Source: a virus. Taken from it: DNA of 34,323 nucleotides. Within the stretch, counting starts at the first letter, position 1. Every line of letters begins with the position of its first letter. The stretch spans positions 1 through 34,323 of IMG/VR virus record IMGVR_UViG_3300024518_003235. One strand, given 5' to 3'. Under the pieces are notes generated by a model, which made no database searches, was not told where the DNA came from, and saw only the letters and a list, made by a program, of their open reading frames with translations. Made by a program: the position numbers and the translations under genes. Below are positions 8,203 through 23,763 of the stretch, in pieces.

Positions 8203-8340
8203 GTGAGCCCCGTATTACCTATGTTTTCAGCTTATCCCAAGTGGAACTTGAGACTTCGATTAATAAAGGGCTCTATGTATAGAGTATCAGACGAACGCCC
8301 GGAAAGTGAAGTTAGGAAGTTAACAAAAAAGGAGAATTAA
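8203..8340 (+). pseudogene. Possible Lar-like remnant in frame behind a TGA
   Basis: The frame of the preceding 56-residue gene continues after its TGA for 45 codons, with possible starts GTG 8203 or ATG 8221. It reads SAYPKWNLRLR and DERPESEVRKLTKKEN. The WNLR block and the PE-rich end resemble the C-terminal end of the Lar-like protein at 5296 (YWNLRFEPECLE), without the CxxC pairs. No Shine-Dalgarno is seen. A competing 27-codon frame (ATG 8199 to 8282) overlaps it. Confidence 0.3.
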
Positions 8341-8342
8341 TT

Positions 8343-8495
8343 ATGAACAGAGACGTAGTAAAATGTTTTAGGTGTAAGAAGGTTCTAGATATAGCTGATA
8401 CACCAGATTATGGCAGGTTCTGTTGTAAAGAATGTGATGGGTCTGAACAATATCAACCCGTTAATAATTATGGAAACTATACTTCTTGGAGTTGA
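8343..8495 (+). CDS. Zinc-ribbon microprotein, 50 residues
   Basis: ATG at 8343 follows AAAAGGAGAATTAATT, a strong ribosome-binding site. The product has VKCFRCKKVL and FCCKECDGSE, two CxxC pairs about 20 residues apart, then a polar Asn/Tyr-rich tail. It lies 40 bp upstream of the large terminase gene. Function unknown. Confidence 0.65.
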   Translation: MNRDVVKCFRCKKVLDIADTPDYGRFCCKECDGSEQYQPVNNYGNYTSWS

Positions 8496-8535
8496 AGTCC
8501 TGATTAGTTAGTTTTATTTATGTTATGGTATATAA

Positions 8536-10875
8536 ATGTCAACTGAGAAAGAATCACTTCTTAAACTTAGAGATAAGCTAAAACAGCTTTCTACCCATAA
8601 AGAAAACAACATGTTAGATTTCATGGATTGGGAGTCTTATGAAAAGCAAAATGATATGCGAGTTAAGGTGCTTGATAGGCTTCTTTACAATAAGGGTGAT
8701 AAGAAGATATTTGTTGTATTTGGCGGGAATCGTTGCTTAGGTAAAAACCAAAAGATTTATGATCCAGTAAAGAATAAAAGCATTGCAGTATCAGAGATAG
8801 ACGGTGATTTTAACGTGTGTTCTTATGACGGAAGCCACAAGGTTATATCTAAAGCATGTAAGCCCTTTATTAAAGGTCATCTAAATATATACAGGGTAAC
8901 TTTTAAAAATGGCACTCAGATTGAGGTTTCCGATACGCATTTGTTACTGGCTTCTTCCGGTAAATATTTGCCCGTTTCTCAACTCCAGAACGGAGACGGC
9001 GTTTTCCATCATCAGTCCATTTTGGAATCCTTCCTTTTAAATCTTCTGCCAAATGTTCTGAATTTGAGGAGTATATCTTTAGGTTTTCTAAACGGTTGTC
9101 GTCCTTTTTTCCGTTTATGTGGTGAACGACTTCATGCCTTTCAAGAGTCCTACCGATATTTTCAGACATCACAAGACGATGTTCAGGTACATAGCATTTA
9201 CGAGGATGACGTGCCATCGGGTGGTTTTTCTTGTAGACAAGGATGTATCCATTCTTATCAATCAGGCAACCGCCCTTCCATTCAGGGTGCCCATCACCAG
9301 AGCGAGGCCCAACACGATGCGTCTTTATATCAAGTTTTTTGCAAATCCTTGAAACTTGTTGGTTGCTGCACCCTATTTCTTCCCCTATTGTTTTTAAGGT
9401 TGCTCCGTCATGCACTCTTTTGGCTATGTAATCAATTGGCCAGATTATTTTTATTTTTGTTCTCATTAAATATCACATCCCGAACTATTATAACCAAAGT
9501 CAATTTAATAGGAAAGAGTGAGGTTTGGGACTTTGAAGTGCCTGTATACAATAACTATTTTATTGAAGGGATAGTCAATCACAACTCTGGGAAAACGGAA
9601 TTAGGGGCAGGGATAGTAGCAGAGTACTTAGAGAAATCCCCAAATGCACAGGTGATGTGTTCGACTGTAGATTATAAACTCTCTGTAGTAGTCCAGCAAA
9701 CAAAAGTAAACAAGTTGATAAGAAATCGTAACGTTAGCTATGGGCAATTCAATCCAGCAAGAGGCTACACAAACGATACCTTCATAATGAAGAACAATTC
9801 AAAGTGCTTGTTCCGTTCTTATCAACAAGGTCGTGAAGCTGTTCAGGGTATGGACTTGGATTTAATATGGTGGGATGAAGAGGGCCCTTGGTCTTATTTC
9901 CAAGAATGTTTAGCACGTCTAACGGATAGGGACGGGGTATTCCTTTTAACCTTTACGTCACTATCAGGGTTTACAAGGTTGGTTAACTTCTTATGGGAAA
10001 GTGAGAATAAGCTAATAGAAACCACGGTTCTTTCTATACTAGATAACCCATTCATCCCACAGTCTGCAAAGGATAACTATCTCTTAACGGTAGATCCAGA
10101 TGAGGTTCAAACAAGGGTTCACGGTAAGCCTCATTTAAGAGAAGGGCTAATTTATAAGTCGTTTGGTGAGATACACAAGATAGACCCATTCGATCATGTA
10201 GAATTTGCAAGAGCAAATCCTCAGAGGTATCAACTGCATGAAGGTATTGATCCACATGAAAGGACACCACATCATTGGATTAGATTTCTATATGACTCAC
10301 AGGAAAACATTATATATATATGTGATGAGTTAAAGGCACCTGTAGAAAGTATGATAATTGCGGATTTCTCTAGATTGATTAAATTGAAAAGGGGTTCGGA
10401 TAAGAGAGGTGTTATAAAGCCAGCGTATTGCCAAATAGACACATCGTCTAATAAGCCGGACGTAATATATAAGCATCCAGACGAAGATCAGGAAGATGCT
10501 CACACCATACGGTTAGAGTTCTTTAGGAATGGAATAGAAACTATATTATGTACAAAGGATAACGCTATAGGTATAGGCGAGGTTAAGAAGAGGCTTAAAG
10601 TTGTTAAGACAAATGCGGGTGTTGTTAAGAGGCCTCCAATGATATACGTATTTAAGACATGTACAGGTGTAATATGGGAGTTTAATAGATATAGTTGGGA
10701 TAGCTACTCTAGTGATAAGATATCAGAAAGGAAAGAGCTAATAAATAAACCAATGAAGAAAAACGATCACTATATGGACGTTGTTAAGTATGAGGTTCTT
10801 AAGATGAGGAATGATTATGGATCAGTTGAAGAAGAGGTTAAATTCGAGGAGCAGTACGAAGGTATGGGATATTAA
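8536..10875 (+). CDS. terL: Terminase large subunit with in-frame intein
   Basis: The packaging ATPase and nuclease. The 779-residue frame contains a 284-residue intein (67-350); the spliced protein would have 495 residues, normal for the family. The P-loop is split as FGGNR before and SGKT after the intein. Walker B is LDLIWWDEE (441-449), followed by the coupling motif LTFTSLSG. The C-terminal nuclease shows HEGIDPHERTPHHW, QIDTSSNKPD and YMDVVKYEVL, giving the acidic metal ligands. Without splicing the ATPase site is destroyed, so packaging depends on splicing. The start has no strong Shine-Dalgarno. Upstream are the microproteins; the portal follows after 176 bp. Confidence 0.93.
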   Translation: MSTEKESLLKLRDKLKQLSTHKENNMLDFMDWESYEKQNDMRVKVLDRLLYNKGDKKIFVVFGGNRCLGKNQKIYDPVKNKSIAVSEIDGDFNVCSYDGSHKVISKACKPFIKGHLNIYRVTFKNGTQIEVSDTHLLLASSGKYLPVSQLQNGDGVFHHQSILESFLLNLLPNVLNLRSISLGFLNGCRPFFRLCGERLHAFQESYRYFQTSQDDVQVHSIYEDDVPSGGFSCRQGCIHSYQSGNRPSIQGAHHQSEAQHDASLYQVFCKSLKLVGCCTLFLPLLFLRLLRHALFWLCNQLARLFLFLFSLNITSRTIITKVNLIGKSEVWDFEVPVYNNYFIEGIVNHNSGKTELGAGIVAEYLEKSPNAQVMCSTVDYKLSVVVQQTKVNKLIRNRNVSYGQFNPARGYTNDTFIMKNNSKCLFRSYQQGREAVQGMDLDLIWWDEEGPWSYFQECLARLTDRDGVFLLTFTSLSGFTRLVNFLWESENKLIETTVLSILDNPFIPQSAKDNYLLTVDPDEVQTRVHGKPHLREGLIYKSFGEIHKIDPFDHVEFARANPQRYQLHEGIDPHERTPHHWIRFLYDSQENIIYICDELKAPVESMIIADFSRLIKLKRGSDKRGVIKPAYCQIDTSSNKPDVIYKHPDEDQEDAHTIRLEFFRNGIETILCTKDNAIGIGEVKKRLKVVKTNAGVVKRPPMIYVFKTCTGVIWEFNRYSWDSYSSDKISERKELINKPMKKNDHYMDVVKYEVLKMRNDYGSVEEEVKFEEQYEGMGY
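8903..9466 (-). CDS. HTH-HNH homing endonuclease, antisense inside the intein
   Basis: The product is 187 residues. An N-terminal HTH (GATLKTIGEEIGCSNQQVSR, residues 21-40) is followed by the HNH nuclease: VPEHRLVMSENIGRTLERHE (93-112), then VVHHINGKKDDNRLENLKIY, with His114-His115, Asn118, Asn124, Asn128 and His138. It would cut intein-free terminase genes and spread the intein. It lies wholly inside the intein but on the opposite strand. The last 25-30 residues are the antisense of the intein's Hint block B and look like a run-on tail. The ATG (9466) has only a weak GGATG upstream and a -10 at 9492-9487. Confidence 0.88.
   Translation of the reverse strand: MRTKIKIIWPIDYIAKRVHDGATLKTIGEEIGCSNQQVSRICKKLDIKTHRVGPRSGDGHPEWKGGCLIDKNGYILVYKKNHPMARHPRKCYVPEHRLVMSENIGRTLERHEVVHHINGKKDDNRLENLKIYSSNSEHLAEDLKGRIPKWTDDGKRRLRSGVEKRANIYRKKPVTNAYRKPQSECHF
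9487..9492 (-). promoter_or_regulatory. Candidate -10 for the antisense HNH gene
   Basis: Perfect TATAAT on the minus strand, about 20 bp upstream of the HNH ATG and inside the intein's C-terminal coding part. TTGACT lies only 5 bp upstream of it, too close to serve as -35, and no better -35 is seen. Confidence 0.35.
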
Positions 10876-22686: not shown

Positions 22687-23763
22687 ATGATTAAACTATT
22701 ATATGTCCCATCACTAAACATACCTGTTTGCTATTGGCGGATAGAGAGCTACGCAGATCAGATAGTTAAGTTTAGTAATCGCGCAATGGTAAACGTTGAG
22801 TACTTTACAGACATAATAGGTGTTAACGTTGCTTGGGATGACGCTTGTGTAGGTAAGGGAAAGATATCTCATGAAATTCAAGGTAAGCTAAGAAACGCTT
22901 TTAAGTTCTTTGATGTAATAATCTTTCAGAGAATCCAGAATATGCCAGCCCTAGCGCTTATACAGGAACTTAGAAAAGAGTATCCAGAAACAAAGATAAT
23001 TGCAGAGTTAGATGATAGTGTAGGTGAGGTTCCACCGTCATCTCCTCATAAATGGAAAGAACATCATAGGTGGTCTGCTGAACATCTTCATAGAAGCGAC
23101 GCTGTTATTTGTTCTACTAAGTACCTAGCTGAAAGCATACGTGAAATAGTTAAAGATAAGCCTGTTCATGTTGCACCTAATTGCATAAACGGTAGGCTAT
23201 GGAGATTAAAGAGAAGTAAGAAGTCTCACGAAGGTATTAGGATTGGATATGTTGGTGGAGGCGCACATGATGAAGATTTGCGTGTTATCTATAAAGATAT
23301 GCTTAATGTATTAAAGAAGCACAAAGAAGTTACTTTAGTTATTAGGTATGGTGGATGGAAGCCTAAGTGGTTCAAAGATCATCCTCAGATAGACTTTAAA
23401 TGTGTGGGGTGGTGTATGGATGAATACCCTCAAGAGCTTCATAACATGGATTTAGACTTAGCATTGGCGCCACTTAGAGATAGTGAGTTTAATAGGTGTA
23501 AGTCTAATTTAAAATGGATTGAGTGGTCTAATTTGGGGATTCCTTTATATGCTTCTAATGTAGAGCCATACCGGCATACAAAGGGTGAAATTACATTAAT
23601 CGACAACGATGGTAAAAACTGGGAAAGAGAACTAAATGATTTTATAGAGCTAGAAAAGTACTTAAGCGTTAATAAGAAATCACTTAAAAAAGAATGTACG
23701 GCAAACTACAACATCTACAGGGAATCAAAGAAAGTTTTGAAATTCATTGAATCGTTGATATAA
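22687..23763 (+). CDS. GT4-like glycosyltransferase (GT-B fold)
   Basis: The product is 358 residues. The N-terminal half has IKLLYVPSLNIPVCYWRIES and VIIFQRIQNM; the C-terminal half opens with IRIGYVGGGAHDEDLRVI and holds LDLALAPLRDSEFNRCKSNL, then KWIEWSNLGIPLYASNVEPY. The FN-KS-LK-E-G-IP pattern is the donor-binding signature of group 1 (GT4) transferases. It is the last gene of the module, with a weak ribosome-binding site, and is followed by a strong terminator 28 bp after its stop. Confidence 0.82.
   Translation: MIKLLYVPSLNIPVCYWRIESYADQIVKFSNRAMVNVEYFTDIIGVNVAWDDACVGKGKISHEIQGKLRNAFKFFDVIIFQRIQNMPALALIQELRKEYPETKIIAELDDSVGEVPPSSPHKWKEHHRWSAEHLHRSDAVICSTKYLAESIREIVKDKPVHVAPNCINGRLWRLKRSKKSHEGIRIGYVGGGAHDEDLRVIYKDMLNVLKKHKEVTLVIRYGGWKPKWFKDHPQIDFKCVGWCMDEYPQELHNMDLDLALAPLRDSEFNRCKSNLKWIEWSNLGIPLYASNVEPYRHTKGEITLIDNDGKNWERELNDFIELEKYLSVNKKSLKKECTANYNIYRESKKVLKFIESLI

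Follow-up and report, generated by a model that had tools for sequence, protein, structure and literature searches.

A terminase intein with a predicted HNH homing endonuclease gene on its opposite strand

The window, by which we mean the whole stretch of DNA analyzed, corresponds to an IMG/VR virus record and is 34,323 bases long. Its gene for the terminase large subunit (terL) contains a predicted intein, and an HTH-HNH endonuclease gene lies entirely inside that intein on the opposite strand. The same layout recurs in other viral contigs and in cultured phages, and the sense frame facing the endonuclease gene is kept open by selection. The explanation that we strongly favor is the backward entry of a homing gene into a mini-intein, probably as a single event, with the composite element then spreading among terminases. 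The features of the locus are as follows.

8536 to 10875, + strand: TerL precursor frame with intein; complete ORF of 779 amino acids, 495 after predicted splicing
8536 to 8733, + strand: N-extein, ending ...FVVFGGNR
8734 to 9585, + strand: intein of 284 amino acids, Cys1 ... VNHN with +1 Ser, inserted in the P-loop at GGNR^SGKT
8734 to 9018, + strand: N-terminal splicing half, intein residues 1–95, with blocks A and B ('VSDTH')
8903 to 9466, − strand: HTH-HNH endonuclease gene, 187 amino acids; complete ORF, wholly within the intein
9019 to 9480, + strand: sense-strand linker, intein residues 96–249, the antisense of the greater part of the HNH gene
9050 to 9184, − strand: HNH nuclease core, protein residues 95–139 (EHR..EVVHH.NG...DN..ENL...N.EHL)
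9335 to 9436, − strand: HTH region, HNH protein residues 11–44, with weak HTH matches; modeled helices at 11–19, 24–31 and 35–44
9476 to 9481, − strand: GGGATG, Shine-Dalgarno-like, before the HNH start; weak (duplex −5.0 kcal/mol)
9481 to 9585, + strand: C-terminal splicing half, intein residues 250–284, VWDFEVPVYNNYFIEGIVNHN
9487 to 9492, − strand: TATAAT, possible −10 box, 20 nt before the HNH ATG; whole-promoter match P 0.15, suggestive
9586 to 10875, + strand: C-extein, beginning SGKTELGA

The host frame was identified as a terminase large subunit by PHROG, and by Pfam through Terminase_6N (5.3e-6) and a weak match to Terminase_3C. The intein occupies residues 67–350 of this frame. Pfam Intein_splicing matched residues 85–350 of the whole frame at 2.7e-8 and the intein alone at 4.8e-9, better than the curated cut-off; it also matched 24 of 26 family members. 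An N-half profile of the intein matched PI-MtuI at 3e-10. Residues C1, H69, D266, Y275 and N284 were invariant in the 26 intein relatives, H283 was conserved in at least 90%, and the +1 residue was Ser in the window and Ser or Thr in the relatives. The insertion is in frame and exact and an intact empty allele is known, as befits an intein. The original prediction, made from the letters of the window, had claimed a full set of splicing residues and the FGGNR/SGKT split, a 779-residue frame leaving 495 residues after excision of the 284-residue intein, a complete antisense HTH-HNH gene of 187 residues inside it, and a sense frame open through the whole of that gene. The ORFs (779 codons with 0 stops in the sense frame), the motifs, and the Intein_splicing and HNH_3 matches bore these claims out.

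A structural model of the intein, built with the 26 relatives, had pLDDT values of 93–98 for residues 1–90 and 96–98 for residues 250–284. Values were below 50 for linker residues 98–160, 162–223 and 237–246. The top 20 PDB matches of the model were all inteins, which points to a HINT fold; its neighbors included the mini-inteins Ssp DnaB, Mtu RecA and Npu DnaB, with target-normalized TM scores of 0.76–0.85 for the better matches. In the model, the splicing halves thus fold as a confident mini-intein, and the middle is predicted to be disordered with no fold of its own. We infer from the intact splicing residues, the predicted fold and the occurrence of such inteins in plaque-forming phages that the sense precursor splices.

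The window HNH protein matched HNH_3 in Pfam (2e-7) and HNH endonuclease in PHROG (1.9e-24). The HNH_3 domain was found in all 26 HNH relatives, and residues E95, H96, R97, H116, N124, N128, N135 and H138, the catalytic-type H and N positions among them, were invariant across them. Its model had a mean pLDDT of 84.9, and its best fold match was the HNH homing endonuclease I-HmuI (1u3e; E 0.06, probability 0.97). This fold match is weak, but agrees with the family assignment and the invariant residues. Position 1 of each HNH codon faces position 1 of a sense codon. The last ~38 HNH codons face the block-B region, and for that reason 8906–9018 codes on both strands. The Leu/Phe/Cys-rich sense stretch pointed out in the original prediction is present; it is not, however, of an unknown kind, since it is the antisense of a Lys/Glu-rich HNH gene and was modeled as disordered. 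The idea that the sense middle is an unknown domain was rejected on these grounds. Nor is there a fused endonuclease in the sense frame, because the HNH lies on the minus strand here and a sense HNH was found in 0 of 80 family members. That the HNH protein drives homing is suggested by the family to which it belongs, by its position within the intein and by the presence/absence pattern described below.

The distribution of the layout was examined by searching first with the window intein and afterwards with HNH and intein N-terminal alignments. Searches took the best 80 of up to 301 relatives, and some loci overlap because contigs were fetched repeatedly. The layout and its antisense phase were common to at least 206 loci, representing at least 95 distinct complete inteins (46 clusters at 90% identity, 26 at 50%). 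In these loci, the strand opposite the HNH stayed open as a single frame for over 350 codons, always in the same phase. Distantly related free-standing HNH genes were one exception, the facing strand closing in that phase within 7–99 codons; the other was L263, which is truncated by a contig end and open for 236 codons. The loci came from viral contigs, one bacterial MAG contig (L132) and eight Ymer-group phage records (Koroua, Amona, Ymer, Abuela, Sabo, Pappous, Taid and Dickeya phage Setonix). A search of phages with the L019 intein protein gave no match, the middle having probably diluted the signal; with the HNH as query, the cultured phages were recovered. Further HNH queries against phages and plasmids gave no additional cultured group with the layout. 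Judged by these comparisons, the element type is old and widespread and extends beyond this one phage.

The host gene was a terminase in nearly every case tested; 2 of 10 C-exteins (L115 and L100) had no Pfam match and were called terminases from sequence similarity and motifs. Most of the insertions lay at GGNR^[ST][GSA]K[ST] or at the corresponding position, which in Koroua is AGFG^TGKS. Shifted insertions in L115 (NRIGK^TT) and L113 (RG^SNRAGKT) indicate that the element has also used neighboring P-loop positions. The nearest terminases to that of the window (L002–L006, 73–76% identical) are intein-free and empty at the same codon. For one terminase type, 80 relatives with C-exteins at least 91% identical comprised ~50 empty alleles and 28 with an intein, and some empty/filled pairs had identical C-extein protein sequences. 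Across lineages, the HNH proteins were often 60–66% identical while the TerL proteins were only 22–30% identical (some TerL identities of 67% were short-overlap alignment artefacts and were excluded), a difference that fits an element moving between terminases. One terminase of this group (L155) reads GGN-SGKT, with one Arg codon absent exactly at the insertion site, possibly as the scar of an imprecise loss. The L202 contig begins inside an intein ending NYFIGDILQKN|SGKT, which is L249-like; the terminase otherwise carries the L045 type, so that a single site may be contested by two different antisense-HNH inteins.

When only the intein N-terminus was used as query, a sample of 80 loci gave an antisense HNH match in 73 (one a remnant), a sense HNH in 0, and no HNH in 7. 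Five of the HNH-free loci were clear mini-inteins of 130–142 amino acids; L270 also reads as HNH-free, and L279 is similar. These HNH-free members of the same family, mini-inteins of the kind sought at this site, occupy the same terminase position and are without only the HNH-bearing middle. Alignment of L215, L217 and L243 with L216, L218 and L223 placed the gene in a loop after about residue 92 of the mini-intein. In a tree of HNH proteins, all 42 embedded members clustered together, separate from the 14 free-standing proteins (one change; SH-aLRT 87). With the long branches of the free-standing proteins, this gives moderate support for a single origin of the embedded HNHs. The insertion point and the exchange of the element among terminases are both shown by these comparisons. 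HNH-free mini-inteins were seen at the terminase P-loop in L240, L270 and L282, and tblastn matches to mini-inteins (H131–H133) fell in the terminase of the cultured Acinetobacter phage ME3 and a hypothetical protein of Microcystis phage Mvi-JY20.

The element that we propose consists of two nested parts sharing one stretch of DNA on opposite strands. Read forward with terL, its product would be a mini-intein capable of protein splicing, with a long unstructured linker. The splicing halves would fold together once translated, excise themselves and join the terminase P-loop. Read backward, the middle would give a separately expressed HTH-HNH endonuclease that recognizes and cuts intein-free terL during co-infection, and repair of the cut would copy the whole element into the break. 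The HNH gene would probably have made a single entry, in reverse orientation, into a HINT mini-intein at the loop that holds the fused endonuclease of other inteins, and the composite would then have spread among distantly related terminases. The original prediction had likewise supposed the backward entry of a homing gene into a mini-intein without closure of the host frame; the mini-inteins, the HNH grouping, the selection against stops and the empty sites lend support to it.

The antisense HNH might instead be a phage packaging or regulatory factor, kept for use with the terminase in whose gene it is located. HNH packaging proteins exist (Kala 2014, as cited in PMC10448857), and their roles near terminases mean that homing is not the sole possible job of such a protein. 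Against this, ~50 of the terminases at least 91% identical do without both intein and HNH, 7 of 80 family inteins lack the HNH, the element is present in many unrelated terminases, and the nearest solved fold is that of a homing enzyme. We therefore consider a packaging or regulatory role unlikely.

Two loci bear on whether the intein acts in trans or is decaying, with terL dead or in two pieces. L222 (intein N match 997–1254) has a 148-amino-acid intein with an antisense HNH remnant of 39 bits, and is likely a decay intermediate between the full element and a mini-intein. L058 (1375–2007, − strand) has an in-frame deletion of block B that leaves a 211-amino-acid intein and open HNH and terL frames; it cannot be expected to splice normally, and represents either an assembly error or an allele that has lost splicing. 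Fractured genes also have a gene between splicing halves; reportedly (in a 2009 description by Dassa and colleagues), they are split inteins whose halves flank a free-standing endonuclease gene. They resemble the window element in that separate gene and in occurring mainly in phages, but differ in that the host gene is broken and splicing occurs in trans, whereas the window has an unbroken frame and predicted cis splicing. A single open frame ran through the HNH gene in all complete loci, and stop avoidance in that frame is selected (below). Moreover, in Koroua, Ymer, Sabo, Taid, Setonix and others, the element sits in the only terL match of the record; since these phages form plaques, their productive terminase must derive from that frame. 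A dead or two-piece terL is accordingly very unlikely as an account of the element.

Phage group I introns commonly carry homing HNH genes, so the insert might be removed as RNA by a self-splicing intron, with the open frame and the intein motifs incidental. An Rfam scan of 8300–10000 gave no match up to E 1, and thus no group I intron RNA structure. The Intein_splicing matches in 24 of 26 members, the invariant C1, H69 and N284, the predicted mini-intein fold, and a sense frame kept in every complete case also argue against removal as RNA. The intron reading was rejected as highly improbable.

Selection on the sense frame was evident in the number of stop codons. For the window HNH gene, synonymous codon shuffles gave an average of 9.2 sense-frame stops, and none of 1000 shuffles was free of stops, as the observed gene is. 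For 29 representative HNH genes, 0 sense-phase stops were observed and 196 were expected from synonymous codon shuffling; the other two antisense phases of the same genes contained 190 and 337 stops. As controls, 14 free-standing HNH relatives had 117 stops versus 121 expected. The HNH codons avoid pairs that read as a stop on the opposite strand because such a stop would close the terL frame, and we conclude that the open sense frame is under selection. Some codon usages often yield antisense ORFs opposite real genes, but a chance or artefactual double-strand reading is scarcely credible, the former being rejected by the codon shuffles and free-standing controls and the latter contradicted by the same layout in independent contigs and cultured genomes.

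The codon positions that vary showed which strand is constrained. In a 29-member group, the flank encoding the N-terminal splicing half was variable at 76 of 82 third sense positions versus 14 of 82 second positions. Inside the HNH gene the order was reversed; second sense positions, which are HNH third positions, varied at 76 of 172 and third sense positions at 16 of 172. A 6-member group showed the same pattern in the HNH core (141/170 versus 48/170), and mixed constraint where the HNH tail faces the N splicing half. Constraint thus switches strand at the boundary: The splicing halves evolve as sense code and the middle as HNH code. Selection therefore treats the middle as HNH code and demands of the sense strand only that it be free of stops.

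Expression signals of the antisense gene were weak in the window. The strength of the GGGATG duplex is matched by 12.5% of antisense positions and is not significant alone, and a sigma-70 scan of the window region gave nothing above shuffles. Among the relatives, six (L036, L041, L046, L114, L115 and L127) had a strong Shine-Dalgarno site inside the intein at the HNH start, and others had a sigma-70-like promoter with a −10 box ending ~5–12 nt before the ATG. At that offset, 19 of 46 representatives scored at least 9 of 12, versus 0–2 per four-base bin elsewhere. This −10 placement is the geometry of a leaderless mRNA and is suggestive of one, the matches being to a consensus, on related sequences, in a region that is also constrained by the intein. 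We think it probable that these elements form a class of inteins that is widespread, that has an obligately antisense mobility enzyme, independently transcribed and uncoupled from expression of the host protein, and whose body is coded on two strands with a stop-free sense frame selected. Under the same reading, and with the same good likelihood, the enzyme would use a leaderless-type promoter in many lineages and its own Shine-Dalgarno site in others.

An intein and its endonuclease are usually one polypeptide, so that production of the host protein always brings production of the enzyme. Dividing the two jobs between opposite strands would permit early production of the enzyme, apart from the late packaging gene. 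It also shows how a homing gene can colonize an intein without joining its protein. In the middle of the element, nature provides a clean example of selection keeping a long antisense overlap open, with the same DNA giving a functional enzyme in one direction and merely a stop-free linker in the other. Since empty alleles, HNH-free mini-inteins, a remnant and complete elements all occur, the intein homing cycle could be tested in cultured phages.

A literature search of partial coverage found no description of an antisense endonuclease gene within an intein, nor of the combination of a continuous intein with an opposite-strand endonuclease gene. Mycobacteriophage TerL inteins have an in-frame homing endonuclease (Kelley et al. 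2016, PMC5050341), and sense-strand HNH inteins are noted in PMC8966425, which cites Dalgaard 1997. In-frame-endonuclease inteins share with the window element the splicing blocks, a site in the TerL ATPase domain, an endonuclease in the loop between the halves, and a patchy presence among close relatives; their endonuclease is part of the polypeptide, whereas here it is a separate opposite-strand gene and the sense loop an unstructured by-product. I-DsqI of Didymium is encoded by an antisense homing endonuclease gene in a nuclear group I intron and is expressed and active (PMC9548176). It too lies antisense within a splicing element, but that element is an RNA intron in rDNA, the enzyme is of the His-Cys type, and there is no opposite protein frame to keep open. 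The ShiLan domain is an HNH concealed out of frame within a phage methylase gene (Arsenault et al. 2025, PMC11855218). As in the window, an HNH gene overlaps a host-protein frame that is left open, and its distribution is disjunct; the ShiLan HNH, however, is on the same strand in another frame and without a splicing domain, whereas that of the window is antisense with a splicing domain and so is not of the ShiLan type. The I-HmuI-type phage enzymes resemble the window HNH protein as HNH nucleases and in fold, but I-HmuI is intron-encoded and the window gene is intein-embedded and antisense.

In the paper on the Ymer genus, the large terminase was annotated manually, with no mention of an intein or an HNH. 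In public Pectobacterium phage records (L031, 2074–4338; L033; L034), the terminase is labeled 'hypothetical protein' and the antisense HNH is unannotated, which indicates that gene callers miss the element. Elsewhere in the window, a glycosyltransferase gene lies amid virion genes at 22687–23763 (phrog_7162, 2.5e-37). In L127 (3913–6249, + strand), the same terminase frame contains a second intein-like insertion downstream with a sense-frame LAGLIDADG_3 match; one terL thus appears to carry an antisense-HNH intein plus a conventional in-frame intein.
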